From Paludibacter jiangxiensis (lineage in GTDB: Bacteria > Bacteroidota > Bacteroidia > Bacteroidales > Paludibacteraceae), in contig CAMBSB010000005.1 of the NCBI GenBank assembly GCA_945870155.1, positions 1-64,000 on the forward strand: 64,000 nt of DNA, read 5' to 3'. Below, piece after piece: positions 10,316 through 27,635 of this stretch. Position 1 is the stretch's first letter; every line of letters starts with the position of its first letter. Both the position numbers and the translations under genes were made by a program. The notes under the pieces are model-generated. The model ran no database searches, was not told the DNA's origin, and saw only the letters and a program-made list of their open reading frames with translations.

Positions 10316-11020
10316 ATGAAAACAGTAAAAATTTTAGCAATTGCAATTATTGCATTAGTTAGTTCAACAAGTGTAATGGCTCAATTCTCGGTAGGAACAG
10401 ATATCGTAAGTAATTATGTTTGGCGTGGAGTTCAACAAGATTTGACAAACACAAAAGGAACACCCAATATTCAACCATCTATTTCGTTTACAGCAGGAAA
10501 ATTTACAATCGGCGCATGGGGTTCTGCCGGCATATTAGGAACAGTTAAAGAAGTGGACATATATGCAACATTTGCCATCTCGAGTTTATTTTCTCTAACA
10601 GTAACAGATTATAACTGGAATTTTTCAAAAAGTTATTTTTCATATAGCGAAGGCACCGATCATGTTTTTGAGGGTTCATTAAACTATGCAGGTGTTGAAT
10701 CATTCCCATTAAGTGTATCACTTAATACAATGTTTTATGGAGCAGATAAAGTAGCAGTTTCAGAAACAGAATCAAAACAAGCTTATTCAACCTATTTAGA
10801 ATTGGCATATCCAATATCGGCAAATGCAAAAATATTTTTAGGAGGTTCACTGAACGAAAGTGCTAACTATGGCACAAGTGGATTTGGCATTACCAACGTT
10901 GCTTTGAAAGCGAGTAAATCAATAGAAATTACGGACAAATTCAGCTTACCTGTTTACGGTGTAGTTGGGGTAAATCCAACAGCTAAAGATGCATTCTTAG
11001 TTCTTGGAGTAACATTATAA
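10316..11020 (+). CDS. TorF-like putative outer-membrane porin linked to ammonium transport
   Basis: The 234-residue product has a cleavable signal peptide (M-K-T-V-K-I-L-A-I-A ... V-M-A-Q) and then a run of amphipathic strands ending in L-V-L-G-V-T-L, typical of an outer-membrane barrel. The N-terminal mature part V-G-T-D-I-V-S-N-Y-V-W-R-G-V is the signature of the TorF/TIGR02001 putative porin family, whose members often lie beside P-II and amt genes. It is the first gene of an operon with glnK1 (76 nt downstream) and amtB1. A role in letting ammonium or small amines cross the outer membrane is inference from context. It may sense or respond to nitrogen limitation with the downstream genes. 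Confidence 0.68.
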   Translation: MKTVKILAIAIIALVSSTSVMAQFSVGTDIVSNYVWRGVQQDLTNTKGTPNIQPSISFTAGKFTIGAWGSAGILGTVKEVDIYATFAISSLFSLTVTDYNWNFSKSYFSYSEGTDHVFEGSLNYAGVESFPLSVSLNTMFYGADKVAVSETESKQAYSTYLELAYPISANAKIFLGGSLNESANYGTSGFGITNVALKASKSIEITDKFSLPVYGVVGVNPTAKDAFLVLGVTL

Positions 11021-11480: not shown

Positions 11481-12845
11481 ATGAAAAAATATATAACATT
11501 AGCTAGTTTATTAGCTTTATTTACCCCAGCACTTTTTGCACAAACAACTCCGATTGTCCCAACAGTGGATGCTGGAGATACAGCATGGATGATTGTAGCA
11601 ACCGCTTTAGTATTATTTATGTCTATCCCTGGACTTGCACTTTTCTATGGCGGTCTGGTTCGTCGTAAAAACGTATTGAATGTTTTTATGCAAGTTTTTA
11701 TTTTAGTTGCTGTAATAAGCATCGAATGGGTAGTATTTGGATATAGCAATGCATTTGGTTCTAGTTCAATAGAATGGTTAAAACCTTATTTTGGTGGTTT
11801 TGACTGGGCTTTTCTAAACAACATCAATGTGAGTGATTTAAGTCCTTATTTTATTTCACACTCTCAACCAACTGCTGATGGTGGTACAATTGGAACAATT
11901 CCTCACATTATTTTCATTATGTTTCAGGGCATGTTTGCTGTAATTACACCTGCGTTAATTCTTGGAGCATTTGCAGAACGTATCAGTTTTAAAGGATTTT
12001 TAGTTTTTTCATTACTATGGGCAATTTTTATTTACAATCCAATAGCACACTGGGTTTGGTCGGGCGATGGTTGGTTATTTAAATTAGGAGCTCTTGATTT
12101 TGCTGGAGGAACAGTTGTTCACATCAATGCAGGTGTTGCAGCTATAGTTACTGCAATCATGCTTGGAAAAAGACGTGATTATAAAGGACATGCACTTCCA
12201 CCTCACAATATTACTTATGTAGTTATGGGAGCAGCCATGCTTTGGGTTGGTTGGTTTGGATTTAATGCAGGTAGTGGACTTGCAGCTGATGGATTAGCAG
12301 CAAATGCATTGATGGTAACACACATAGCAGCAGCTACAGCAGCCATAACATGGGCTTTAATTGAATGGTTCTTTGACAAACGTCCAACTATTGTAGGTAT
12401 CAGTACCGGTGCGGTAGCAGGTTTAGTAGCAATTACACCAGCCGCAGGTTTTGTAGGTGTAGGCGGAGCACTTATTATTGGAGTAGCAGTATCAGTAGTA
12501 TGTTTTATTATGGTTGCATATGTTAAACCTAAACTTGGATATGACGATTCGTTAGATGCATTTGGAGTTCATGGAGTTGGTGGTATTTTAGGTGCTATTT
12601 TAACAGGTGTTTTAGCAACTCCAGCTATACAATCGGCTTATAGTGGTGCTGCTTTTGGAAACTTACACCAATTATGGGTACAATTTATTGCAATTGGAGC
12701 AACTATTGTTTTCTCAGGAGTTGGAACATTTATATTGTTCAAAATCACTGACTTGTTAGTAGGTGTACGAGCAACAGATAAACAAGAAGCAATTGGACTT
12801 GATGAAACTCAACACGGAGAAACAGCTTACACTAATTTCGATTAA
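11481..12845 (+). CDS. amtB: Ammonium transporter, copy 1
   Basis: This is a 454-residue Amt/Rh family channel. It has a signal-peptide-like first segment (ending L-F-A-Q), the D-T-A-W-M start of the first core helix and eleven membrane helices. The pore's twin histidines are His214 (T-V-V-H-I-N-A-G-V-A) and His364 (F-G-V-H-G-V-G-G). Length and motifs are complete. The protein conducts ammonium across the inner membrane and is normally blocked by the P-II encoded just upstream. The C-terminal tail A-I-G-L-D-E-T-Q-H-G-E-T is identical to that of the second copy, suggesting a selected interaction surface. The transcript ends in a hairpin at 12921-12940 and in RNA element A. Confidence 0.96.
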   Translation: MKKYITLASLLALFTPALFAQTTPIVPTVDAGDTAWMIVATALVLFMSIPGLALFYGGLVRRKNVLNVFMQVFILVAVISIEWVVFGYSNAFGSSSIEWLKPYFGGFDWAFLNNINVSDLSPYFISHSQPTADGGTIGTIPHIIFIMFQGMFAVITPALILGAFAERISFKGFLVFSLLWAIFIYNPIAHWVWSGDGWLFKLGALDFAGGTVVHINAGVAAIVTAIMLGKRRDYKGHALPPHNITYVVMGAAMLWVGWFGFNAGSGLAADGLAANALMVTHIAAATAAITWALIEWFFDKRPTIVGISTGAVAGLVAITPAAGFVGVGGALIIGVAVSVVCFIMVAYVKPKLGYDDSLDAFGVHGVGGILGAILTGVLATPAIQSAYSGAAFGNLHQLWVQFIAIGATIVFSGVGTFILFKITDLLVGVRATDKQEAIGLDETQHGETAYTNFD

Positions 12846-12920
12846 CTGTTTGTTTACAAATATTTCAGAAGAGAAGTTTCAACAAAATTCACACAAACAT
12901 TTTTAGACAAATTTAAAGGA

Positions 12921-12940
12921 GCGGAATCTATAAATTCCGC
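12921..12940 (+). other. 3' hairpin after amtB1
   Basis: GCGGAAT (12921-12927) pairs with ATTCCGC (12934-12940) with a CTATAA loop and flanking A/T pairing. Only a short TTC follows, so termination here would be weak. It precedes RNA element A on the same strand. Confidence 0.55.
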
Positions 12941-12969
12941 TTCTAAATGTCAATCATGTTTTAAATTAA

Positions 12970-13051
12970 ACACGGTGAAACTGTTTTAAATCGTGTGTTT
13001 TTTAGTTTTATTGTTTCCAACAGACTGTTTCGTGAGAAACGGTCTGTTTTT
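12970..13051 (+). ncRNA. Nitrogen-island RNA element, copy A
   Basis: This copy has two hairpins and a linker. The 5' stem is ACACG (12970-12974) with CGTGT (12992-12996). The linker contains TTTAGTTTTATTGTT (13001-13015). The 3' stem, CAGACTGTTTC with GAAACGGTCTG (13021-13031/13036-13046), has a GTGA tetraloop and five T after it. Copies B and C share the linker and the CAGACT stem with compensatory base changes. It lies after amtB1 and before the glnK2 promoter, so it may be the 3' end of the amtB1 mRNA, a processed small RNA or a terminator. No separate promoter was found. Confidence 0.65.
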
Positions 13052-13156
13052 GTTTCATTTTGATATATTCAAATTCATATAATGTATTTTTTGATACTTA
13101 TTCGACATTATATATATCTTATTTATGCTATTTATATCATATTATTATCATTTTGT

Positions 13157-13186
13157 TTTGCGATTAAAATAAAAATATTACTTTTG
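13157..13186 (+). promoter_or_regulatory. Promoter of the glnK2-amtB2 operon
   Basis: TTTG at 13157-13160, an 18-base spacer and TACTTTTG at 13179-13186; an alternative TTTG at 13152-13155 gives a 23-base spacer. Start near 13193 and a leader of about 80 nt. Confidence 0.62.
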
Positions 13187-13253
13187 CTGCGGAAATACAA
13201 TAACAATCTAGTAATTTCAATAGAATATCAAAAAAATGAATTATTACAAAACA

Positions 13254-13271
13254 AACAATAAAACAAAACAA
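13254..13271 (+). promoter_or_regulatory. Leader segment complementary to the RNA-element linker (glnK2)
   Basis: AACAATAAAACAAAACAA ends two bases before the GTG start of glnK2 and is complementary, with about two mismatches, to the linker shared by RNA elements A and C. The sequence is low in complexity, so chance is possible. See the finding on antisense pairing. Confidence 0.3.
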
Positions 13272-13273
13272 AA

Positions 13274-13621
13274 GTGAAAAAAATTGAAGCAGTAATCCGC
13301 AAATCCAAATTCGAGGATGTTAAACAAGCCTTGTACGATGTTGACATTGATTGGTTTTCATATTGGGACATTACAGGTCTTGGTAAATCCACAGAAGAAC
13401 AAGTAGTTCGTGGCCAAGTATTTAAATCAGGATATATCCAAAGAAGAATGATTTCAATTGTTGTTCGGGATATTAACTTAGAAAAAACAGTTAATGCCAT
13501 TTTGAATTCGGCATGGACAGGCGAAACAGGTGATGGAAAAATTTTCATTTATGATATTCTTGAAACATTTAGAATCCGCACCAAAGAATCCGGTCCAAAT
13601 GCACTTTTTAATAATGAATAG
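13274..13621 (+). CDS. glnK: P-II family nitrogen regulatory protein, copy 2
   Basis: The 115-residue product is very close to the first P-II copy and shares all its features, including Phe50 in place of the uridylylated Tyr51 and the shortened T-loop. The start is a GTG: the aligned residues M-K-K-I-E-A match the ATG start of copy 1, and no ATG is available at that place. The leader has an A/C-rich stretch directly before the GTG instead of a Shine-Dalgarno sequence. It lies 45 nt before amtB2 and has its own promoter at 13157-13186, so the two P-II/Amt pairs can be expressed separately. Confidence 0.93.
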   Translation: MKKIEAVIRKSKFEDVKQALYDVDIDWFSYWDITGLGKSTEEQVVRGQVFKSGYIQRRMISIVVRDINLEKTVNAILNSAWTGETGDGKIFIYDILETFRIRTKESGPNALFNNE

Positions 13622-13666
13622 TAATATTTATTAAAAAAAAATATGTCGAAATTCAATTTAAATTAA

Positions 13667-15028
13667 ATGAGAAAAATTAAATTCCCACTATTAATACTAT
13701 TAACTTTATTCAATTTACCAATTCAGGCACAGACAACAGCTCCAACTATCGATACAGGTGATACAGCTTGGGTATTAGTATCAACAGCACTTGTACTTTT
13801 CATGTCCATTCCCGGATTGGCTCTTTTTTATGGTGGTCTTGTTCGCCGAAAAAACGTATTAAGCGTTTTTATGCAAATCTTTATACTAGTTGCAGCCATA
13901 AGTGTAGAATGGGTGATTTTAGGCTATAGCAATGCATTTGGATCGAACTCCATTGATTGGTTAAAACCTTTTATTGGTGGTTTTGATTGGGCTTTTTTGC
14001 GAAACATTTCCATTAACGAGTTGAGTCCTTTTTTTATATCGCATTATTCAGTATTGGCTGATGGATCAAAAGTTGGAACAATTCCTCATATAGTTTTCAT
14101 TCTTTTTCAGGGAATGTTTGCAGTTATTACTCCTGCTCTAATTATTGGAGCTTTTGCTGAACGAATAAATTTCAAGGGATTTTTAATATTTTCAATTCTT
14201 TGGGCTATTTTTATCTATAATCCTATTGCTCATTGGGTTTGGTCAGCCGATGGATGGCTTTACAAAATGGGAACTTTAGACTTTGCCGGTGGAATAGTTG
14301 TACATGTTAGTGCAGGTGTAGCTGCAATAGTAACAGCAATATTGCTTGGAAAACGACGCGATTACAAAGGACATGCTTTGCCACCTCACAATATACCACA
14401 AGTAGCCATAGGTACCGGCATGCTTTGGGTAGGTTGGTTTGGATTTAATGGCGGAAGTGGTCTTGCTGCCGATGGACTTGCTGGAAATTCCCTGTTTGTA
14501 ACTCACATTTCAGCATCTGTTGCCGCATTAACATGGACAGCTCTTGAATGGAAAATAGATAAAAGACCAACAGTAGTTGGAATTTGTACAGGAGCCATAG
14601 CAGGATTAGCTACAATTACCGGTGCATCGGGTTTCGTAAGTGTGCAAAGCGCAATAATTATTGGATTTTCAGCTTCTGTAATCTGCTTTTTAATGGTTGC
14701 TTACATGAAACCAAAATTGGGATATGATGATTCACTTGATGCTTTTGGAGTACATGGAATTGGAGGTATAATTGGAGTTATTTTAACAGGAGTGTTTGCA
14801 TCTCCATTGATTCAATTGAATTATAGTGGAGCAATTTACGGAAATTTTCACCAATTGTGGATTCAAATTTTAGCAACCGGAACAACTATTGTTTTTTCAG
14901 GCATAGGAACTTATATATTGTTTAAAATTACAGATAAATTAGTAGGAGTTCGTGTTAATGATAAGCATGAAGCCATTGGTCTTGACGAAACTCAGCATGG
15001 CGAAACAGCTTATACAAATTTTGATTAA
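13667..15028 (+). CDS. amtB: Ammonium transporter, copy 2
   Basis: This 453-residue Amt channel is closely similar to copy 1 along its whole length. It has a signal-like first segment ending P-I-Q-A-Q and the twin pore histidines His213 (V-V-H-V-S-A-G) and His363 (F-G-V-H-G-I-G-G). The external loop around residues 125-138 and the N-terminus differ most. It forms an operon with glnK2 and ends 70 nt before RNA element B, which carries a strong terminator. The tandem arrangement of two P-II/Amt units suggests duplication in place. Different affinity or expression of the two channels is possible but not shown by the sequence. Confidence 0.96.
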   Translation: MRKIKFPLLILLTLFNLPIQAQTTAPTIDTGDTAWVLVSTALVLFMSIPGLALFYGGLVRRKNVLSVFMQIFILVAAISVEWVILGYSNAFGSNSIDWLKPFIGGFDWAFLRNISINELSPFFISHYSVLADGSKVGTIPHIVFILFQGMFAVITPALIIGAFAERINFKGFLIFSILWAIFIYNPIAHWVWSADGWLYKMGTLDFAGGIVVHVSAGVAAIVTAILLGKRRDYKGHALPPHNIPQVAIGTGMLWVGWFGFNGGSGLAADGLAGNSLFVTHISASVAALTWTALEWKIDKRPTVVGICTGAIAGLATITGASGFVSVQSAIIIGFSASVICFLMVAYMKPKLGYDDSLDAFGVHGIGGIIGVILTGVFASPLIQLNYSGAIYGNFHQLWIQILATGTTIVFSGIGTYILFKITDKLVGVRVNDKHEAIGLDETQHGETAYTNFD

Positions 15029-15070
15029 ACAAAATTGCAAATTATTTTGTGCTATTTTGAATTAAATGAT

Positions 15071-15136
15071 TGTGTGTTCTTTAGTTTTATTTTTAAAAAG
15101 CAGACTAATTCGAATTGAATTAGTCTGCTTTTTTTT
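15071..15136 (+). ncRNA. Nitrogen-island RNA element, copy B, with terminator stem
   Basis: The linker GTGTGTTCTTTAGTTTTATT begins at 15072, and CAGACT begins 29 bases later, against 28 in copies A and C. The 3' stem AGCAGACTAATTC (15099-15111) pairs perfectly with GAATTAGTCTGCT (15117-15129), loop GAATT, and is followed by eight T: a strong terminator for amtB2, and A-rich enough on the left to serve gdhA on the other strand. The stem differs from A and C by paired changes. A 5' hairpin (ACAAAAT/ATTTTGT around 15030-15055) replaces the CGTG stem. Confidence 0.68.
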
Positions 15137-15198
15137 ATTTGATACTTAAATATAAAATAAATTGTATGTAAGTTTACAAAATTGTATCATTTATATTT

Positions 15199-16536
15199 TT
15201 AAATTACACCTTGCGCCATCATTGCTTTTGCCACTTTCATAAATCCGGCAACATTAGCCCCTTTTACATAGTTAACAAAACCATCGGATTCGGTTCCATA
15301 TTTTACACATGATTCATGTATACTAGCCATAATTCCTTTAAGTTTTTGATCTACTTCTTCTTTTGACCAACTTATGCGCATAGAGTTTTGAGTCATTTCT
15401 AATCCGGAAACAGATACACCACCTGCATTGGCTGCCTTACCCGGTCCATAAAGTATTTTATTTTTCAAGAACACTTCAACAGCCTCGGGAGTTGAAGGCA
15501 TATTAGCACCTTCCGAAACAGCAATACAACCATTTGCTACAAGTGTCAGAGCATCATCACCATTCAATTCATTTTGTGTAGCCGATGGCAAAGCAATGGT
15601 ACATTTTTCGGCCCAAGGACGTCCACCTTCTACATACTTACAGTTATATTTATCGGCATATTCTTTTATACGTCCGCGATACACATTTTTTAATTCAAAA
15701 ATATAAGCCAATTTTTCACTATCAATACCATTTTCGTCGTAAATATAGCCATTACTATCCGATAGTGTAATTACTTTTCCTCCTAATTCCAAGACTTTTT
15801 CGGCAGTGAAAGTTGCAACATTACCAGAACCAGAAATAGAAACTACCTGACCTTTTAAATCATTAATTCCCTTGCGCTTAAGCATATTCATTAAGAAATA
15901 AATATTACCGTAACCTGTTGCTTCGGGACGTATAAGTGAACCTCCAAACTCCAAACCTTTACCTGTAAAAGTGCCTGTATTTTCACGAGCTATTTTTTTA
16001 TACATGCCATACATGTATGCTACTTCGCGACCTCCTACACCAATATCACCCGCTGGAATATCTGTATCAGGACCAATATGACGCCACAATTCTAACATAA
16101 ACGCTTGACAAAAACGCATCACTTCAGCATTTGACTTGCCTTTAGGATTAAAGTCAGATCCGCCTTTTGCTCCACCCATAGGAAGTGTAGTAAGTGCATT
16201 TTTAAACGTTTGTTCGAAAGCTAAAAATTTCAGGATCGAAGGACAAACAGAGGCGTGAAAACGCATACCTCCTTTATAAGGGCCGATTGCATTGTTGTGT
16301 TGAATACGGTATGCCATGTTGGTCTGAACATTACCTTTGTCATCAGTCCAAGTAATGCGGAACGAAAAAATCCGTTCTGGTATACAAAGACGTTCAATCA
16401 AATTTTGTTTTTCGAACTCGGGATGTGCATTGTATTCCTCTTCGATAGAATGTAACACCTCCTCTACTGCCTGATGATATTCAGGTTCATTTGGAAATCT
16501 TCTCTTTAAATTGTCGAGAACTAATTCAACTTTCAT
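15199..16536 (-). CDS. gdhA: NADP-type glutamate dehydrogenase
   Basis: The 445-residue protein is a hexameric-type (GDH-50) glutamate dehydrogenase that reductively aminates 2-oxoglutarate with ammonium. Catalytic Lys124 lies in G-G-A-K-G-G-S-D-F and Asp164 in P-A-G-D-I-G-V-G; the Rossmann glycine motif S-I-S-G-S-G-N-V-A-T follows near residue 235. Length equals that of the E. coli/Bacteroides enzyme. The cofactor preference for NADP is inferred from family and context. It is transcribed toward amtB2, sharing the terminator region of element B. Its promoter (16577-16607), a TTGTCA-ATA-TGACAA dyad farther upstream, and a 34-nt leader complementary to the RNA-element linker are listed separately. 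Confidence 0.96.
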   Translation of the reverse strand: MKVELVLDNLKRRFPNEPEYHQAVEEVLHSIEEEYNAHPEFEKQNLIERLCIPERIFSFRITWTDDKGNVQTNMAYRIQHNNAIGPYKGGMRFHASVCPSILKFLAFEQTFKNALTTLPMGGAKGGSDFNPKGKSNAEVMRFCQAFMLELWRHIGPDTDIPAGDIGVGGREVAYMYGMYKKIARENTGTFTGKGLEFGGSLIRPEATGYGNIYFLMNMLKRKGINDLKGQVVSISGSGNVATFTAEKVLELGGKVITLSDSNGYIYDENGIDSEKLAYIFELKNVYRGRIKEYADKYNCKYVEGGRPWAEKCTIALPSATQNELNGDDALTLVANGCIAVSEGANMPSTPEAVEVFLKNKILYGPGKAANAGGVSVSGLEMTQNSMRISWSKEEVDQKLKGIMASIHESCVKYGTESDGFVNYVKGANVAGFMKVAKAMMAQGVI

Positions 16537-16547
16537 AATAAAAATGC

Positions 16548-16564
16548 TTTTTAGTTTTATTGTT
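16548..16564 (-). promoter_or_regulatory. gdhA leader segment complementary to the RNA-element linker
   Basis: On the coding strand this is AACAATAAAACTAAAAA, ending 11 bases before the ATG. It is an exact 17-base complement of the linker of RNA elements A and C and would cover the ribosome-loading region of the gdhA mRNA. Confidence 0.4.
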
Positions 16565-16576
16565 TTATAACGGGCT

Positions 16577-16607
16577 CAAAGTTACAAATTAATATCAAAA
16601 TCACAAT
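16577..16607 (-). promoter_or_regulatory. gdhA promoter
   Basis: On the minus strand ATTG (16607-16604), a 19-base spacer and TAACTTTG (16584-16577) match the Bacteroidota consensus. The start would be near 16570, giving a leader of about 34 nt. Confidence 0.7.
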
Positions 16608-16664
16608 ATTATGAACATTTTAAATATATTATTTACAAATAAAAACCAATATATCACACTATCG

Positions 16665-16679
16665 TTGTCAATATGACAA
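16665..16679. promoter_or_regulatory. Perfect dyad TTGTCA-ATA-TGACAA upstream of gdhA
   Basis: Two perfect 6-base arms lie about 60 bases upstream of the gdhA -33 box. The shape suits a dimeric activator, possibly of the Crp/Fnr or a related class, but no regulator can be assigned. Confidence 0.4.
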
Positions 16680-16931
16680 TATTTAAATCTCCAATTATAT
16701 TTTTATTTTGAATCAAATTTCAATTAATCTTTATCAAAATGATAGATATTTATAAAAATACAATTATTATAGAAAGCTATAATACGCAACAAATAACAAA
16801 TAATTATATCAATAATATAATTATTTTGATAGTAATACTTTTAATTTGTAAGCATTTTGAAAGTGTTAAATTGCCAATTTATATTAGCAAACACAAAGAT
16901 TATTTATAAATAGTGTATATTTATAAATATT
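16680..16931. other. AT-rich intergenic spacer
   Basis: This is the remainder of the spacer between gdhA and the downstream end of the PEP-synthase-like gene, both on the minus strand. It contains only A/T-rich microrepeats; no frame, hairpin terminator or repeat element was recognised. Confidence 0.5.
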
Positions 16932-19895
16932 TTAGGGTTTTAATACAACCCCAATATTTTTTCTTCCATCAATTTTTATAATCATTGGCTTTTCAAATCT
17001 CACATGTCGTACATATTTTGTTTCGAAAACTGCTTCTTGCTCATTCAAAAAATCAACATCGAATGCACCGTCGTTGATATGAGGATTGATGGTAAAATAG
17101 GAAACACCAAAAGAAGTCAGGTTTTGAAAAAAATGAGTTCCCTGGCTAGGGTCAATTCTATAGTTAGAGAAACTGGTCTCCACAATCAAGCGAGCATTGC
17201 TAATATGCGGCCATTTTACAGGAATTCCCAACCACTCGTCGCTTGAGCCCCATCTACCAGGTCCAATCAAAATATAATGTCGATTTTCATTACACAACAT
17301 TTTATTAATTTTTTCGACATCATACATAATCAAGCGATTATTAGAAGCACTAAACATTTCGGGATTAACATAAACAATATCAAAAATATCATTTGTAAAG
17401 CCATGTCCTAAAGAACTTGTGCAAGTAATAATGGCATTTTCAGTTGGAATTGCGCCAATATCCTCGTTAATAAATTCCTTGTTGTCAATAATTGGTCTAA
17501 TTTGTAACAGATAAAACAAATGTTGTTTAGCTAAAGAATAATCAAGATTTACCGCAAATTCAATTTCTACAGGTCGCCCCATTTCTATTTGTGAAACTGC
17601 TAAAACTTCCTTCAAGATATTAGCTAATGGAAAAACGTCATGTTCTAAAATATTCGCAAATGTGATAATTTTCCGTCCACCGGGATAAATACCATCATAA
17701 ATTGTTTGATCTTCGACATTAAAAGTAGAAGCTAAATACCTCAAAGTGCCGTCTTTCTCAGCATCACGCACGCTAATTTTGAGTAAATTAAAGCCATCGT
17801 CGACCTGCGGAACAAACTGCATCTGGCTTAAATCCAATGCATTAAAAAATGTTTGTGTTTCACGCAAAGCAAAATCAAGCGTGCTGGTTTGCAGCACGTT
17901 ATGTGGATAAGCTGGCGAAAATCGCAATGTTGTACCACCATCAACAATATATTTCCCTAGTCCCAAAGCAATATTGGCAATACCATCCTCAGGTTTTTCG
18001 GAACCAATAGGATAATAATTCAACGAACGTGCAACCCCGGAGAAAGATGGATAAAAACGATTATCGTATTTACTTCCACATATTTCCTGCAACACGACAG
18101 CCATTTTTTCTTCATCAATTACATTTTTGGTAGCTGTCATATAAGCTTTACTATCGCGATAATAAACCGATGCATAAACAGCTTTTACGGCCTCTGATAC
18201 CATTTCGAGCATCTGAGTTTTACTTTCGGCATTATAAGGAACCATATATGTGGAATAAATTCCAGCAAAGGGTTGATAATGTGAATCTTCGAGCAAACTT
18301 GATGACCGAATAGCCAAAGGAGAACTTACAGCACCTAAAAACGCATACAAATCGGCAATTAAATGTTTTGGCAATCGGGCTTTTAAAAAATGTTTCAAAA
18401 TATCTTCATCTTCCAAATCGGACAAAGCTAACTTGTATAAATTGTTGCTTTCCATAAATTCCGAAAAAATATCGGTACAAATAACCACTGTTTTAGGTAT
18501 GGTGATTTGAGCATTTTCGAAATTTTCAAATTGCTCATTGCGTTTTATCATAGCATCGATAAATGCGAGTCCACGCCCCTTACCACCCAATGAGCCATCT
18601 CCAATACGGGCGAAATTTGAAAACTGATCGAACCTTTCGGATCTGAAAACAGCAACAACACCACGATTTTTAACCTTTCTATATTGCAAAATAGCTTCGT
18701 AAATAGCATGGCGCAAGTTCAACAATTCCTCAGGATTATTTTTTGATGGGTTTGTGTTTTTTACAAATTCAGCTAAAGGAAACATGGCTCTAGAATAAAG
18801 CCAACGGGAAATATTGTTGCGCGATACATTATAATATAGAGTTTCATCGGTAAGTTGAAGTATAGAGTTTTGCAAATCTTTCAGATTGCACACACGAGCT
18901 TCTACGCTACCAGTCAATGGATTAATAAAAACAAAATCGCCAAAACCAAAATTATTTGTAATTATTTCCCTTAGTTCCAATAAAAACATTTTTGATGTTT
19001 TACACAAAAAAGATGCATTCTGCTCAGTAGCGTAAACATTATTTTCGACATCTGTTGATTGAATAATTAAGGGAATTTTTGGATCAATCTCACGAATTTG
19101 TCGGCATAAATTTATTCCGGCTAATTTATTTTTTTTTCCTGCTTGAAAAAATGATACATCAGTAATCACACCAAGCATATTATGCATATATTTCATATAA
19201 AGCTGCAATCCTTCTTCGTAGTTACGAGCTAATAATATTTTTGGTCTACCGCGCATTCGCAGCATCTGCTCATGCTCATTCAGTGCCTCGGTCATGAAGG
19301 ATTTTGACTGCTGAAAAACATATTTATATAAATGAGGCAATATTGATGAATAAAAATGGATTGAATCTTCAACAAATAAAATTGTTTGTACATTTACGGA
19401 CTCAACATCCTCTTGTACATTCATCTCATCTTCTATCAACTTAATTATAGCAAGCAACAAATCGGAATTACCCAGCCAGCTAAAAACATAATTAATAGCA
19501 GTAAGATCTTCATTTGCAATGCGTTTAGATACAGAACGTGAAAATGGAGTTAGAACAACGATAGGCACATTAGGTAACTCTTTCTTAACTTCTTTAGCCC
19601 AATTAAACGGATTTATGCTATCGCCGCTAGGCATGGAAATGATTAATTCAAAAGAACGTTCTTTAAGCAATTTATTCGCCTCAATTTCCGACGAGACCAA
19701 TGTAAAACGTGGAGGATATCGTAAATTTAAAGACGTATATTCATTAAAAAGCAACTCATCAATACGCCCATCTTCTTCCAAAACAAAAACATCGTACTTA
19801 CTTGCAAACAATAAAACATTGTAAATTCTATGTTTCATCAAATTGGCAAACGTAGTATCTTTAAAATAGAGCTTGCCTAAACCGGGTAATGTCAT
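16932..19895 (-). CDS. Receiver-domain plus PEP-synthase-like ATP-grasp protein
   Basis: The 987-residue protein combines two response-regulator-like regions (about 28-155 and 168-320; I-L-F-V-E-D-S at the start of the second) with the N-terminal nucleotide-binding domain of PEP synthase/PPDK. The latter shows I-G-D-G-S-L-G-G-K-G-R-G-L at about 430, A-I-R-S-S-S-L-L-E-D-S at about 527 and a late Q-I-R-P-I. The swivelling phosphohistidine domain and the PEP/pyruvate barrel that complete a true PEP synthase are missing; instead about 170 C-terminal residues with H-Y-I-L-I-G-P-G-R-W-G-S-S follow. Ordinary PEP synthesis is therefore unlikely; a signalling or phosphotransfer role in nitrogen control is inferred from its place between gdhA and glnN. 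A CAAAAGTA element at 19938-19945 is a likely -7 box. Confidence 0.78.
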   Translation of the reverse strand: MTLPGLGKLYFKDTTFANLMKHRIYNVLLFASKYDVFVLEEDGRIDELLFNEYTSLNLRYPPRFTLVSSEIEANKLLKERSFELIISMPSGDSINPFNWAKEVKKELPNVPIVVLTPFSRSVSKRIANEDLTAINYVFSWLGNSDLLLAIIKLIEDEMNVQEDVESVNVQTILFVEDSIHFYSSILPHLYKYVFQQSKSFMTEALNEHEQMLRMRGRPKILLARNYEEGLQLYMKYMHNMLGVITDVSFFQAGKKNKLAGINLCRQIREIDPKIPLIIQSTDVENNVYATEQNASFLCKTSKMFLLELREIITNNFGFGDFVFINPLTGSVEARVCNLKDLQNSILQLTDETLYYNVSRNNISRWLYSRAMFPLAEFVKNTNPSKNNPEELLNLRHAIYEAILQYRKVKNRGVVAVFRSERFDQFSNFARIGDGSLGGKGRGLAFIDAMIKRNEQFENFENAQITIPKTVVICTDIFSEFMESNNLYKLALSDLEDEDILKHFLKARLPKHLIADLYAFLGAVSSPLAIRSSSLLEDSHYQPFAGIYSTYMVPYNAESKTQMLEMVSEAVKAVYASVYYRDSKAYMTATKNVIDEEKMAVVLQEICGSKYDNRFYPSFSGVARSLNYYPIGSEKPEDGIANIALGLGKYIVDGGTTLRFSPAYPHNVLQTSTLDFALRETQTFFNALDLSQMQFVPQVDDGFNLLKISVRDAEKDGTLRYLASTFNVEDQTIYDGIYPGGRKIITFANILEHDVFPLANILKEVLAVSQIEMGRPVEIEFAVNLDYSLAKQHLFYLLQIRPIIDNKEFINEDIGAIPTENAIITCTSSLGHGFTNDIFDIVYVNPEMFSASNNRLIMYDVEKINKMLCNENRHYILIGPGRWGSSDEWLGIPVKWPHISNARLIVETSFSNYRIDPSQGTHFFQNLTSFGVSYFTINPHINDGAFDVDFLNEQEAVFETKYVRHVRFEKPMIIKIDGRKNIGVVLKP

Positions 19896-20135
19896 ACAAT
19901 TATAATTTTTATATTATTTCAGCACTTAGTATTCTCACAAAAGTAATAAATGCGTTTTGATTTCATAAAGGATTATATCAAAAACTTCATAATTAGTTAT
20001 AGTAATAACACGAACAAGCAATGATTGCAATATCATATATCTATTTTTTTTACGATTTTACGAGCATTTTGACTGTTTTTTATTGTATTTACATTATTTT
20101 GACACCATATTTATTTATTATATAACATTTTTACT
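19896..20135. other. Spacer upstream of the PEP-synthase-like gene
   Basis: Apart from the minus-strand -7 candidate at 19938-19945, I see only A/T-rich sequence between the divergent gene start and the RNA-element promoter. Confidence 0.45.
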
Positions 20136-20143
20136 TATCTTTG
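20136..20143 (+). promoter_or_regulatory. -7 box for standalone RNA copy C
   Basis: TATCTTTG is an exact TAnnTTTG box. No good TTTG lies 18-22 bases upstream; the nearest, at 20098-20101, is 34 bases away, so this is a one-box prediction. The start would be near 20150. Confidence 0.4.
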
Positions 20144-20149
20144 CAGCCA

Positions 20150-20299
20150 AAACAATTCGCATTGAATATATAATTTACGTTGAATGTGATTTTTAACATT
20201 GGCGTATTCAACATACACGAATTATTTGCTCGCAAAAATTCGTGTGTTTTTTAGTTTTATTGTTAAGGACAGACTACTTCGTGATGAAATAGTCTGTCC
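20150..20299 (+). ncRNA. Nitrogen-island RNA element, copy C (probable standalone RNA)
   Basis: Three hairpins follow one another. Hairpin 1 is GTTGAAT/ATTCAAC (20179-20185/20206-20212). Hairpin 2 is ACACGAATT with AATTCGTGT, extended by TTTGC/GCAAA inside (20215-20245). Hairpin 3 is GGACAGACTA/TAGTCTGTCC (20267-20276/20290-20299) with a GTGAT loop. Between 2 and 3 is the linker, identical to copy A over 23 bases from 20242. The gene to the left points away and glnN has its own promoter 290 bases downstream, so this looks like an independent RNA of about 150 nt. No long T-run follows, so the 3' end is uncertain. Confidence 0.6.
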
Positions 20300-20590
20300 A
20301 TTTAAAAATCTCAAAACAAAAATTAGCTTTGTTTAAAACACTTAATATTTTACTATTTGTATTAATATAAACTTTTTTGCTACCATTTTGTTATTATATA
20401 ATGATTTAAATAACAATAATGTTATTAAAAAATAAAGATAACGGCTTACAAAAATTCAGCATAAAAACAAACATAATATTGCATTATGTAACTAATATCT
20501 TGTATTTAGCTTCATATTTAAATATTTCTACTATTTAATATTTCATTTTAATACTACAATTTAAAAAATAGGATAATAAACATGTTTATA
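20300..20590. other. AT-rich spacer between RNA copy C and the glnN promoter
   Basis: No frame or strong hairpin is visible here; there is only A/T-rich sequence with a small ATTGT/ACAAT-type repeat around 20405-20425. Confidence 0.45.
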
Positions 20591-20622
20591 ATTGCCAAAA
20601 ACTTATATTTTCACTATTTTTG
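20591..20622 (+). promoter_or_regulatory. glnN promoter
   Basis: ATTG (20591-20594), a 20-base spacer and TATTTTTG (20615-20622) match the consensus. The leader would be about 62 nt and contains several AACTAAC-type repeats. Confidence 0.72.
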
Positions 20623-22994: not shown

Positions 22995-23032
22995 AATAGT
23001 GGGAAGGTCAATATGAGCTTCCCACTATTTTG
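22995..23032 (+). terminator. Terminator of glnN
   Basis: AATAGTGGGAAG (22995-23006) pairs perfectly with CTTCCCACTATT (23018-23029) around an 11-nt loop, followed by a short TTT. Confidence 0.85.
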
Positions 23033-23038
23033 CAAGAA

Positions 23039-23055
23039 AACAATAAAACAAAAAA
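23039..23055 (+). promoter_or_regulatory. gltB upstream segment complementary to the RNA-element linker
   Basis: AACAATAAAACAAAAAA follows the glnN terminator, 50-67 bases before the gltB ATG. It matches the complement of the RNA-element linker at all but one position. Low complexity limits the weight of this match. Confidence 0.28.
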
Positions 23056-23105: not shown

Positions 23106-26100
23106 ATGAATTCAAACCAGATAAATATTGATGAATATGAGCAGCGTTCGCTGTATTCATTTCAAAACGAACATGATGCATGTGGTGTAGGTCTGATTCT
23201 TAACCTTTACGGCGAGAAATCGCATGAGATCGTTGAAAAAGGATTGCAGGTATTAGAAAACATGGTACATCGAGGTGCTGAAAGTGCCGATAACAAAACG
23301 GGTGATGGTGCAGGTATTTTGGTGCAAATACCACACGAGTTTATATTACTACAAGGCATACCGGTTCCGGCTAAAGGAAAATATGGTACAGGTTTAGTGT
23401 TTTTACCTAAGGATGAGAAAAAATCTCAGCTTTGTTTAAATGTAATGAAAGAACATGTTGAGAAAGAAGGTCTCAGTCTTTTATTTACACGCGATGTGCC
23501 TGTTAACAGCAATATATTAGGTCAAATTTCGACTAGCACTGAACCACAGATCAAACAAATTTTTATTACGGGCGGCAGCAACCAACAAGATTTGGAGCAA
23601 AAACTTTATGTAGTTCGCAAAAAAATTGAGAAATCCATTCTCAAATCCAATCTTGCTAAAGATCGTAGTTTTTATATTGTAAGCCTTTCTACCAAACAAA
23701 TGGTTTACAAAGGTATGCTTACCTCACTTCAACTCCGCGAATACTATCCGGATTTAACAAACCCCAATTTCACTAGTGGTATCTCATTGGTACATTCCCG
23801 TTTCAGTACCAACACATTCCCAACTTGGGACTTGGCACAACCATTTAGAATGTTGGGACACAATGGCGAGATTAACACAATTCGTGGTAATCGTCAGTGG
23901 ATGGAGTCTCGTGAAAGCGTACTAAAATCGGACATTTTAGGAAATCTGAATGATTTATACCCAATTGTACAACCAGGAATGAGCGATAGTGCTACGCTGG
24001 ACAATGCTCTTGAATTCCTGGTAATGTCAGGTAAAAGTTTACCACATGCCATGGCCATGTTAGTTCCTGAAAGTTGGAATCAAAAAAATCCTATTTCTGA
24101 TAATTTACGTGCGTTCTACGAATACCATAGTACTTTTATGGAACCATGGGATGGTCCTGCTACTTTACTATTCAGCGATGGAAGATATGCCGGTGGAATG
24201 TTAGACCGCAATGGTTTACGTCCTGCACGTTATTTGGTTACACATGACAATATGATGGTAATTGCCTCTGAAACAGGCACCATCGAATTTGATGCTGAAC
24301 GTATCAAAGAGAAAGGAAGACTGAAACCCGGAAAAATGATCATGATTGATACTGAAACCGGACAAATTTATTATGATAATGAACTAAAAGAAGGTTTAGC
24401 CAAAGCTTTTCCATACCGTGAATGGTTAAATAAAAATTGTATTAGCATTGATAACATATCATCAGGAAGAAGTGTAAAAAATGATTTGAATAATTACACT
24501 ACTTTGCTTCGTGCATTTGGTTATTCTACCGAAGACATGGAAAGATTGATAATTCCAATGGCAAACGATGGATATGAACCAACCTCTTCGATGGGTAATG
24601 ATGTAACATTATCTGTTTTTTCGGATAAACCACAAAGGTTGTTCAGTTATTTCCGTCAACAATTTGCGCAGGTAACCAATCCTCCAATTGACCCAATTCG
24701 TGAAGAATTGGTCATGTCATTAACCGGATATATTGGTTCTGTACACCAGAACTTGTTAGAACCAGCACGTGAAATTTGTAAAATGGTAAAACTTAAGAGT
24801 CCGGTAATAACCAACTCAGAGTTTGATATTTTAATGAATTTAAACTACAAAGGCTTCTATACCATATCATTGCCTATGCTTTTCGATCCTAAAAAAGGAG
24901 CTAAAGGACTTGAAGCTGCTATACAGGAATTATGTTTATCAGTTGAAAAAGCGGTAGATGATGGTAAAAATTATATTGTATTAAGCGACCGTGGTGTTGA
25001 TGCTACTCATGCACCTATACCTTCGTTGTTAGCTGTTTCAGCTGTTCATTTGTATTTAGTTCAGAAACGTAAAAGAATGCAAATCGACATTGTAGTTGAA
25101 TCTGCAGAGCCACGTGAAGTGATGCATTTTGCATTATTATTTGGGTTTGGTGCCAATGCCGTAAATCCATATATGGCATTTGCAATTATCAACGACAAAA
25201 TTAAAGCCGGTGATATTAGTATGGACTTTGACACTGCTAAAAAGCATTATATCAAAGCTATAAATAAAGGATTATTGAAAGTGCTTTCGAAGATGGGAAA
25301 TTCAACGCTGCGTAGTTACCGTGGAGCACATATTTTCGAAGCAATTGGTATTTCTAATTTGCTGTTAGACAAATATTTTAAAGGAATTTCTTCGGCAATT
25401 GGTGGTATTGACATTGAAGATATTGCCAATGAAGTATTGCGTCCACATGCAGAAGCATTTTTCCCTGAAGAAGGAAATGACCCATCGAAACTTTATAATT
25501 TAGGTATTTACAATTATAGAGTTTTAGGTGAGGACCATGCATGGAATCCGGAAACAGTAGCTCGTTTGCAAATTGCAACAAAAACCAATGATTATAGCAA
25601 ATACAAGGAATACGTAAAAGCAGTTGATGAGAAAGCTGCTCCAATTTTCATACGCGACTTGATTGACTACAAACGTAATCCTATAGATATCAACGAGGTA
25701 GAACCAGTTGAGAATATTATGAAACGTTTTGTTACCGGCGCCATGTCTTATGGTTCTATCAGTCGTGAAGCACACGAAGCCATGGCAATAGCCATGAATA
25801 TTATTGGAGGACGAAGCAATACAGGTGAAGGTGGCGAAGATCCTGAACGTTATAAAAAACGAGAAGACGGATTAAGCACACGCAGTGCCATTAAACAAGT
25901 TGCATCCGGCCGTTTTGGTGTTACAGCTGAATATTTGGTAAATGCAGATGAAATTCAGATAAAAATTGCTCAAGGAGCAAAACCTGGCGAAGGAGGACAA
26001 TTACCCGGACATAAAGTAGATAAAATCATTGCAAAAACCCGACATTCTATACCGGGAATTTCGTTGATATCTCCCCCACCCCATCACGATATTTATTCTA

Positions 26101-27635
26101 TCGAAGATTTAGCACAGCTAATTTACGATTTAAAAAACATCAATCCGAGTGCAATTATCAGTGTGAAATTGGTATCAGAAACCGGAGTTGGCACAATTGC
26201 TGCCGGTGTAGCTAAAGCTAAAGCTGATTTAATTCTTATAAGTGGTGCCGAAGGTGGAACAGGTGCAAGCCCATCAAGTTCAATTAAACATGCAGGACTA
26301 CCTGTAGAAATTGGGTTGGCTGAAACACAACAAACTCTTGTTTTAAATAATTTACGCGGTCAAATTCGCCTTCAAACAGATGGACAACTAAAAACAGGAC
26401 GTGACATTATCATTACAGCACTTTTAGGTGCTGAGGAATACGGTTTTGCAACAAGTGCTTTGCTTATTCTGGGTTGTGTAATGATGCGTAAATGTCACTT
26501 AAACACTTGTCCGGTAGGAGTTGCTACTCAAGATGAAGTATTGCGTAAACATTTTACAGGAAAACACGAATACTTAGTTAATTTCTTCAATTTTATAGCT
26601 CAGGATGTTCGTGAACATTTGGCTCAGTTGGGCTATCGTAGCTTGGACGAAATAATCGGGCATACTGAATTGCTTGAAAGAAAAGAAGTAGAAGGTAGTT
26701 CGAAATTGAAAAAAGTTGATTTATCAAAAATACTTTTTGTACCAAGTAAAGGAAATAAAAATGCTTTGCGTCAAAACAAGATTCAAGACCATAAAATTGA
26801 CAAAGTACTTGACCGTGAACTGATTAAAAAATCACTTCCTGCACTCGACTTATGTATGCCGGTTGAGATGAAATATAAAATTAAGAATACCGATCGTACA
26901 GTAGGTGCAATGCTATCAGGTGAAATTGCCAAACGTTATGGACAAGCCGGATTGCCTGTTGATACTATCAAAGCATATTTTAATGGCTCGGCAGGTCAAA
27001 GTTTTGGTGCATTTTTAAGTAAAGGCGTTTTCTTTGAATTAAATGGCGAAGCCAATGATTATGTTGGAAAAGGACTTTCGGGAGGTAAAATTGTAGTTGT
27101 TGCTCCGAAAGAAAGTACTTTTAAACCCGAAGAAAATATTATTGCAGGAAATACAATTTTATATGGTGCTACATCTGGTGAAGTTTATATCAATGGTGTT
27201 GTAGGTGAACGTTTTTGCGTACGTAATTCGGGCGCAACGGCAGTTGTTGAAGGTGCCGGAGATCACTGTTGTGAATATATGACCGGTGGTCGTACGGTGG
27301 TTTTAGGCAAAACAGGACGTAACTTTGCAGCCGGCATGAGTGGTGGAGTTGCTTATGTACTCGACGAATCAGGTGATTTTGATTTCTTCTGTAATATGGA
27401 AATGGTTGAACTATCGTTGATTGAAGATAGTCACGACAGCAAAGAAGTAAAAACTTTGATTGAAAATCATTACAAATACACAGGCAGTCAGTTAGCAAAA
27501 AAAATTCTGGATAACTGGAGAGATTATGTGGATAAGTTCATTAAAGTTGTTCCAATTGAATACAAAAAGGTGATTCAGGAAGAAAAAATGGAAGCTATCA
27601 ACAAAAAAATTGCTCAGGTAGAAAGAGATTATTAA
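23106..27635 (+). CDS. gltB: Glutamate synthase (GOGAT), large subunit
   Basis: The 1509-residue protein has all GOGAT parts in order. A class II glutamine amidotransferase domain starts at Cys26 (H-D-A-C-G-V-G-L) after a 25-residue propeptide that would be cleaved. Then come the central domain, the FMN synthase domain (P-G-E-G-G-Q-L-P-G-H-K-V near residue 960), the 3Fe-4S ligands C-V-M-M-R-K-C-H-L-N-T-C near 1125, and the C-terminal beta-helix domain with G-R-T-V-V-L-G near 1400. It transfers the amide of glutamine to 2-oxoglutarate, completing the cycle with GS-III. It lies 219 nt after glnN and 134 nt before gltD. I found no exact TAnnTTTG box upstream; it might be read partly from glnN. 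Confidence 0.97.
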   Translation: MNSNQINIDEYEQRSLYSFQNEHDACGVGLILNLYGEKSHEIVEKGLQVLENMVHRGAESADNKTGDGAGILVQIPHEFILLQGIPVPAKGKYGTGLVFLPKDEKKSQLCLNVMKEHVEKEGLSLLFTRDVPVNSNILGQISTSTEPQIKQIFITGGSNQQDLEQKLYVVRKKIEKSILKSNLAKDRSFYIVSLSTKQMVYKGMLTSLQLREYYPDLTNPNFTSGISLVHSRFSTNTFPTWDLAQPFRMLGHNGEINTIRGNRQWMESRESVLKSDILGNLNDLYPIVQPGMSDSATLDNALEFLVMSGKSLPHAMAMLVPESWNQKNPISDNLRAFYEYHSTFMEPWDGPATLLFSDGRYAGGMLDRNGLRPARYLVTHDNMMVIASETGTIEFDAERIKEKGRLKPGKMIMIDTETGQIYYDNELKEGLAKAFPYREWLNKNCISIDNISSGRSVKNDLNNYTTLLRAFGYSTEDMERLIIPMANDGYEPTSSMGNDVTLSVFSDKPQRLFSYFRQQFAQVTNPPIDPIREELVMSLTGYIGSVHQNLLEPAREICKMVKLKSPVITNSEFDILMNLNYKGFYTISLPMLFDPKKGAKGLEAAIQELCLSVEKAVDDGKNYIVLSDRGVDATHAPIPSLLAVSAVHLYLVQKRKRMQIDIVVESAEPREVMHFALLFGFGANAVNPYMAFAIINDKIKAGDISMDFDTAKKHYIKAINKGLLKVLSKMGNSTLRSYRGAHIFEAIGISNLLLDKYFKGISSAIGGIDIEDIANEVLRPHAEAFFPEEGNDPSKLYNLGIYNYRVLGEDHAWNPETVARLQIATKTNDYSKYKEYVKAVDEKAAPIFIRDLIDYKRNPIDINEVEPVENIMKRFVTGAMSYGSISREAHEAMAIAMNIIGGRSNTGEGGEDPERYKKREDGLSTRSAIKQVASGRFGVTAEYLVNADEIQIKIAQGAKPGEGGQLPGHKVDKIIAKTRHSIPGISLISPPPHHDIYSIEDLAQLIYDLKNINPSAIISVKLVSETGVGTIAAGVAKAKADLILISGAEGGTGASPSSSIKHAGLPVEIGLAETQQTLVLNNLRGQIRLQTDGQLKTGRDIIITALLGAEEYGFATSALLILGCVMMRKCHLNTCPVGVATQDEVLRKHFTGKHEYLVNFFNFIAQDVREHLAQLGYRSLDEIIGHTELLERKEVEGSSKLKKVDLSKILFVPSKGNKNALRQNKIQDHKIDKVLDRELIKKSLPALDLCMPVEMKYKIKNTDRTVGAMLSGEIAKRYGQAGLPVDTIKAYFNGSAGQSFGAFLSKGVFFELNGEANDYVGKGLSGGKIVVVAPKESTFKPEENIIAGNTILYGATSGEVYINGVVGERFCVRNSGATAVVEGAGDHCCEYMTGGRTVVLGKTGRNFAAGMSGGVAYVLDESGDFDFFCNMEMVELSLIEDSHDSKEVKTLIENHYKYTGSQLAKKILDNWRDYVDKFIKVVPIEYKKVIQEEKMEAINKKIAQVERDY

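Follow-up and report, generated by a model that had tools for sequence, protein, structure and literature searches.

Three described RNA systems come closest to the element considered here. GlnZ of Enterobacteriaceae is a small RNA (sRNA) with a conserved seed that comes from the 3' untranslated region (3'UTR) of a nitrogen-assimilation mRNA; it is derived from glnA, requires Hfq and RNase E, and has sucA as its main target (PMC9731577). FopS and GibS of Bacteroidaceae are multicopy Bacteroidota sRNAs in which a terminator hairpin comes after a shared unpaired seed; one family member derives from a 3'UTR, and an RRM_1 protein binds them (PMC11697453; PMC7366714). The glnA RNA motif, RF01739, is listed as cis-regulatory and originates from cyanobacteria and marine samples (PMC2864571). 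No nitrogen-responsive sRNA of Bacteroidota was found described in full-text searches of open-licence PMC papers. In this work, we analysed an element present in three copies (A, B, and C) in the ammonium-assimilation cluster of Paludibacter jiangxiensis, within the first 64,000 nucleotides (nt) of contig CAMBSB010000005.1 (assembly GCA_945870155.1, forward strand), hereafter called the window. Judged from its sequence, the element most likely represents an sRNA family of nitrogen metabolism, and it probably acts as an RNA regulator of nitrogen use that has not been described before.

The element is similar in kind to GlnZ and FopS and lacks Rfam homology. As with GlnZ, the RNA would arise from the 3'UTR of a nitrogen-assimilation mRNA and would act through a conserved seed, and its predicted gltB site, mostly 50-80 nt upstream of the start codon, is comparable to the GlnZ site in sucA (PMC9731577). 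Unlike GlnZ, it has amt or P-II genes as hosts (40 of 48 aligned copies), its predicted targets are gdh, gltB, glnK, and argG, stand-alone (orphan) copies exist, and a search of its own genome gave no Hfq match; one RRM_1 protein was found there. With FopS and GibS it shares the multicopy character and the order of seed and terminator hairpin, the seeds being comparable by description only; in contrast to the element, FopS has been reported as conserved within Bacteroidaceae and acts in polysaccharide use (PMC11697453; PMC7366714). No Rfam family reached its threshold, with the limit that the FopS model, deposited according to its authors, possibly lies outside the release searched. RF01739 had no match in the window; the element does not hold the leader position of that motif and instead precedes -7 boxes.

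The three copies had been recognized in an initial annotation made from the letters alone, which gave the distance from GTGTG to CAGACT as 28, 29, and 28 bases. GTGTG starts at 12993, 15072, and 20242 and CAGACT at 13021, 15101, and 20270; positions and spacing are correct, and the homology of the copies was confirmed. The stems it described, GTTTC/GAAAC in A, AATTC/GAATT in B, and an outer GGA/TCC in C, are also present, but the outer extension is not specific to C, as the hairpin of copy B likewise extends outward (17 pairs in the predicted fold). The linker 13-mer alone is unremarkable (19 matches with up to two mismatches vs. 19.15 expected); CAGACT-N(8-20)-AGTCTG occurs twice, in B and C, vs. 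0.00 expected, and each of the three copies folds at an energy far below that of its shuffles (z -5.2, -6.1, and -6.1). The covariance model proposed by the annotation was built from the three copies and finds in their own 5.79 Mb genome only these three strong matches (E 1.1e-17, 2.0e-14, and 1.0e-10), the next best being at E 5.3e-4. A refined model (R2) at E <=1e-4 detects the element in 29 of 36 Paludibacter genomes and in none of 24 genomes of other families. The annotation knew of no named RNA with this layout, and indeed no Rfam family reaches its gathering cut-off in the window. When positions 12900-20400 were searched with lax settings, five matches came out, each far under its cut-off and at chance level. 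Neither outcome that the annotation had named as a refutation was obtained: no known Rfam family was hit, and homologues that go beyond plain terminators occur in those 29 of 36 congeneric genomes. The element is a real RNA family, confined to one genus and outside Rfam.

The anatomy of the element was deduced from an alignment of 48 distinct copies. This set was taken only from core matches with an ammonium-cluster gene in the locus and so is no evidence for genomic linkage; two loci, L209 and L220, were excluded from it as target leaders read backwards. The copies begin with a variable 5' part, often of the form ACACGGT...ATCGTGT (P1), continue with a core, CGTGTGTTTTTTAGTTTTATTGTTTC, and end with a hairpin, P2, typically CAGRCTAYTTC-GTGA-GAAATGGYCTG. 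The annotation had proposed that the pairing is maintained by selection on RNA structure, which P2 bears out: 8 of its 13 pairs have two-sided changes among the 48 copies, one pair being A-U in 23 and G-C in 23, and for the whole structure 0 of 500 shuffles attained any one of five measures. The variation in P1 is mostly one-sided, and P1 is weakly supported. What the annotation missed is that invariance belongs to the core, which lies between the hairpins, rather than to the stems, and that this core is antisense to mRNAs of nitrogen genes. Copies that lack the P1 5' arm also have the core nearly unchanged, so that P1 is not the reason for its conservation. In divergent copies identified afterwards (L371, L372), AGTTTTATTGTT persists while the flanking bases drift, and one further copy (L099:364) has one base changed. 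P2-like hairpins without the seed also follow amt at L061:3718-3818 and L073:206-299 and are perhaps decayed copies.

The shared 5' part, AACACGGTGAAACTGCTTACAACTAAT, is homologous to the final amt codons. In the local alignment with the end of amt1, 27 bases are matched with two mismatches and one gap, and in all 13 amt ends examined the alignment score was reached by 0 of 200 shuffles. By descent, the element therefore consists of an amt 3' end and its 3'UTR, and copy B, whose core begins 43 nt past the amt2 stop codon, is still close to such a stop. One could accordingly see in the copies no more than the intrinsic terminators of amt and P-II genes, related to one another through cluster duplication and devoid of a function in trans. 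Their position 3' of these genes fits, duplication of an amt end would account for several copies, and P2 is followed by at least five T within 9 nt in 39 of 48 copies, as in Rho-independent terminators. However, the core and not the stem is the most conserved part, an invariant spacer is not needed by a terminator, orphan copies retain the core behind a -7 box, and matching sites exist in gdh, gltB, and argG, which makes this explanation improbable.

A function in trans is supported by the pairing potential of the core. In the window, the gdh leader has 18 consecutive nt complementary to the core of copy A, and among 30 leaders scored against the core complement, those of gdh and gltB came out on top. 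Across the genus, the complement scores at least 11 in 29 of 30 gltB leaders, and in 27 of 30 the score is reached by at most 5% of query shuffles (30 of the 31 congeneric genomes with a gltB match, the incomplete G034 being excluded); the exception, G028 with a score of 7, is a genome in which no element was detected. In other families, 12 of 12 gltB leaders are at random level. Duplex energies with z < -2 against dinucleotide shuffles were obtained for 23/30 gltB leaders, 7/11 gdh leaders, 16/28 argG 3'UTRs, and 13/30 glnK leaders, compared with 10/108 other leaders; the medians are -3.1 for gltB and -7.4 for gdh vs. -0.08 for the other leaders. These z-scores are descriptive, as leaders of related genomes are non-independent; among the 11 gdh leaders are one from another family and some from genomes in which no element was detected, and the background, here and in the comparison with other families, includes loci L213-L216, picked up by motif match. 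The element has a conserved seed with conserved complementarity to several mRNAs, as is characteristic of a trans-acting base-pairing sRNA. With at most one mismatch, the complement of a core 17-mer has 75 matches in 22 congeneric genomes; 24 of them (hand-counted) are the element itself, and 51 remain vs. 27 for a reversed control, while in 14 genomes of other families the numbers are 13 vs. 16. CACG stands 6-9 nt after AACAATAAAAC at 6/24 gltB, 5/18 argG, 0/12 glnK, and 0/7 gdh sites, with no occurrence in the preceding 18 nt, and, given slight variation in spacing, CGTG at the core's 5' end could be its pairing partner. In many Paludibacter genomes (loci L174, on G000:C8, and among L340-L368), the target motif lies between argG and its terminator, a candidate 3'UTR target or sponge.

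The motif AACAATAAAAC might instead be a DNA site of a nitrogen regulator that lies by chance within the element and the target promoters. Several nitrogen genes have it, some of them in genomes where no element was detected, and the gltB site comes close after a -7-like box. However, the -7 box of the glnK leaders precedes the site by 68-116 nt (box present in 8 of 12 site-bearing leaders), which places the site inside the transcript and not at the promoter, and in argG it is in the 3'UTR. The orientation is also difficult to reconcile with a DNA site, since the seed complement was found in the sense direction in 46 of 162 leaders (six gene groups) and the antisense word in 0 of 162, and the motif is fixed in orientation before P2 in the element. 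A regulator site is thus similarly improbable. As a separate observation, most Paludibacter gltB leaders share a terminator-like hairpin that lies between glnN and gltB, AGTGGGA...TCCCACT (22996-23033 in the window). Its T run overlaps the -7-like box right before the gltB site, so that terminator and promoter are seemingly fused.

A further kind of evidence is the position of the element relative to promoters. A common gene order is P-II gene, amt, element, P-II gene, amt, element, glnN, gltB. The 40 copies mentioned above follow their amt or P-II gene on the same strand, with a 137-amino-acid open reading frame intervening in three of them (L218, L098:2925, and L096:2801); five further copies are orphans and three are at a locus or contig edge. 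A -7 box, TAnnTTTG, of the consensus reported for Bacteroidota (PMC7366714), is present between the element and the next same-strand gene in 33/33 cases, for glnN always at -76 to -96. Between the upstream gene and the element it was found in 4/40 (5/43 if L209, L220, and L091 are counted). Each orphan (copy C, L090, L097, L091, and L102) has a -7 box 92-105 nt before the core, which reads TATCTTTG in four of them (the distances in L090 and L097 were counted by hand). This layout indicates that the element is the end of a transcript, either of an amt or P-II mRNA or of a short gene of its own, and not a leader. Copy A is probably the 3'UTR of amt1, ahead of the glnK2 promoter, copy B probably that of amt2, and copy C, which has a divergent PPDK_N-domain gene on one side and glnN on the other, is proposed to be a stand-alone sRNA gene (Table 1). 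A riboswitch or attenuator that acts in cis, as part of the glnK-amt and glnN-gltB operon leaders, would agree with copies upstream of P-II genes or glnN, with the terminator-like hairpin end, and with two possible alternative 5' helices; it is contradicted by the -7 box that separates the element from its downstream gene in all 33 cases and by gdh, which lies downstream of copy B on the opposite strand, and is less probable still.

Table 1. Copies of the element, host genes, predicted pairing sites, and proposed promoter boxes in the window. The names amt, P-II, gdh, and gltB were given by NCBIfam (P-II matches under curated cut-offs); glnN (type III glutamine synthetase) and the PPDK_N-domain gene were named by Pfam.
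Feature	Position	Strand	Remarks
amt1, ammonium transporter (TIGR00836)	11481-12845	+	proposed host mRNA of copy A; 3' end homologous to element 5' part
Copy A	12970-13051	+	P1 12970-12976/12990-12996; core 12992-13017; P2 hairpin 13019-13048, GTGA loop; T tail
Seed of copy A	13004-13014	+	AGTTTTATTGT
-7 box proposed for glnK2	13179-13186	+	TACTTTTG; downstream of copy A
Partial pairing site in glnK2 (P-II) leader	13254-13264	+	AACAATAAAAC; 9 nt before GTG start
amt2, ammonium transporter (TIGR00836)	13667-15028	+	proposed host mRNA of copy B
Copy B	15071-15136	+	core and P2 hairpin 15097-15131; without canonical P1; convergent with gdh
gdh, NADP-specific glutamate dehydrogenase	15199-16536	-	predicted target
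Predicted pairing site in gdh leader	16548-16564	-	AACAATAAAACTAAAAA; 11 nt before ATG; duplex -24.0 kcal/mol, z -5.6
-7 box proposed for gdh	16577-16584	-	TAACTTTG
-7 box proposed for copy C (own promoter)	20136-20143	+	TATCTTTG; similar distance in 4 other orphans
Copy C	20215-20299	+	P1 20215-20223/20237-20245; core from 20241; P2 20267-20299
-7 box proposed for glnN	20615-20622	+	TATTTTTG; downstream of copy C
Predicted pairing site in gltB leader	23039-23055	+	AACAATAAAACAAAAAA; 50 nt before ATG, directly after terminator-like hairpin 22996-23029
gltB, glutamate synthase large subunit	23106-27635	+	predicted target

The homology of the copies, the covariation, the -7 layout, the conserved complementarity, and the descent from amt can all be read in the sequences, and on these features we consider it likely that the element forms the 3' portion of a trans-acting sRNA family by which Paludibacter tunes nitrogen assimilation. 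In the proposed mechanism, the RNA would be produced as the 3'UTR of amt or P-II (glnK) mRNAs, ending at P2 as an intrinsic terminator, and also from stand-alone genes with their own promoter, such as copy C. The core would serve as the seed and would pair with gdh and some glnK mRNAs at their ribosome-binding regions, with the gltB leader near its probable 5' end, and with the argG 3'UTR. At high amt mRNA levels, which presumably occur when ammonium is limiting, the pairing with gdh, no more than about 30 nt from the start codon, would repress translation. Production and release of the RNA, its pairing, and the repression of gdh are steps that we infer; repression is likely at gdh and glnK, since pairing there covers the ribosome-binding region. 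The gltB pairing is mostly 50-80 nt upstream of the start codon and the argG site lies before the terminator, and the sign of either effect cannot be predicted. If the proposal is correct, it would describe a post-transcriptional nitrogen regulon with genus-wide sites in a lineage in which Hfq was not found here, and an independent parallel to GlnZ in which the regulator is carried by the ammonium transporter message itself.

Several observations weigh against a trans-acting sRNA. A good T tail is absent in 9/48 copies, and in L032, L033, L107:3740, and L093 a terminator-like hairpin lies ahead of the element, so that read-through would be required. Seed accessibility is mixed: the predictions often have the seed paired, with a median unpaired probability of 0.375. 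The leaders are A-rich, which makes short matches cheap; the reversed control 17-mer lies close before start codons in 7/27 cases (5/17 and 2/10 in two sets) vs. 17/45 for the true one. Single cases may thus be chance, among them, in the own genome, the exact 17-mer that stands outside the element before dapF, a pgl gene, and an unassigned gene, and, in G013, the near-exact one before genes for DAP dehydrogenase and carB. The glnK candidate concerns fewer than half of the leaders (the 13/30 given above, and 0/5 in a second set), and the remaining leaders of the cluster do not qualify as targets, with z < -2 in 0/16 glnN, 1/19 amt, 1/3 gltD, 1/4 asnB, and 1/5 dapL leaders. Sites also survive where no element was detected, in the argG 3'UTR of G008, G025, and G028 and in the gltB leaders of G011 (score 13), G014 (12), and G025 (14), so that co-occurrence within the genus is imperfect.

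Another debatable issue is the state of the seed within the RNA. A 5' segment can pair with it, with at least 9 of 11 pairs in 26 of the 38 P1-bearing copies, and at most 5% of shuffles were as good in 24 of 48 rows; minimum free energy folds of some copies form such a seed-locking helix and those of others leave the seed open. The 5' arm, which comes from the amt coding end, reads ACGGTGAAACT compared with ACAATAAAACT in the target, the A-to-G differences being tolerated by G-U pairs. This might point to an sRNA with a built-in lock, in which the 5' arm occupies the seed in competition with the P1 helix and orphan or P1-less copies are open; ammonium-transporter mRNAs would then store a locked regulator of gdh, gltB, glnK, and argG. 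We regard the lock as doubtful, given that P1 is weakly supported and that the 5' arm may be plain amt inheritance, descent from amt being the simpler cause.

The linkage of the family to nitrogen genes was counted independently of the 48 copies. A scan with a 20-base pattern gave 53 stretches (52 genomic and one viral), and R2 matches 37 of these strongly (47 matches, E <=3e-12). Mobile DNA or a dispersed repeat, which several near-identical copies per genome could suggest, has a negligible probability, as all 37 strong-match loci contain ammonium-cluster genes and the other 16, without a strong match (two are weak, E 0.002), contain none. The viral stretch, from IMG/VR, has no R2 match at E 0.01. 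Over 393 genomes of the order, R2 matched, besides the own genome, seven genomes, all weakly (E 1.6e-5 to 6.7e-4), and within the stretches examined the flanks of these matches gave no match to cluster query proteins; five genomes of other genera in the same family had zero R2 matches. Two weak congeneric matches, G010:C667 and G019:C36 (E 4.9e-5 and 9.1e-5), have no cluster gene in the stretches examined. At two of the weak matches, L284 and L285 (genomes G254 and G335, of another family), a hairpin with a CGTGATG loop follows the core-like TTTTTAGTTTTATTGGTTAGA (read in L284), perhaps a related sRNA or chance; the upstream gene there is, from its translation, presumably superoxide-dismutase-like.

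In the window, gdh and the PPDK_N-domain gene stand between copies B and C (15199-19895). A similar gdh/PPDK_N arrangement is present in L097 and, over two contigs, in L087/L090, where the glnN-side copy is left as an orphan with its own -7 box. It is also worth noticing that a 234-amino-acid protein (10316-11020), without NCBIfam or Pfam match, heads the cluster and recurs with it in relatives.

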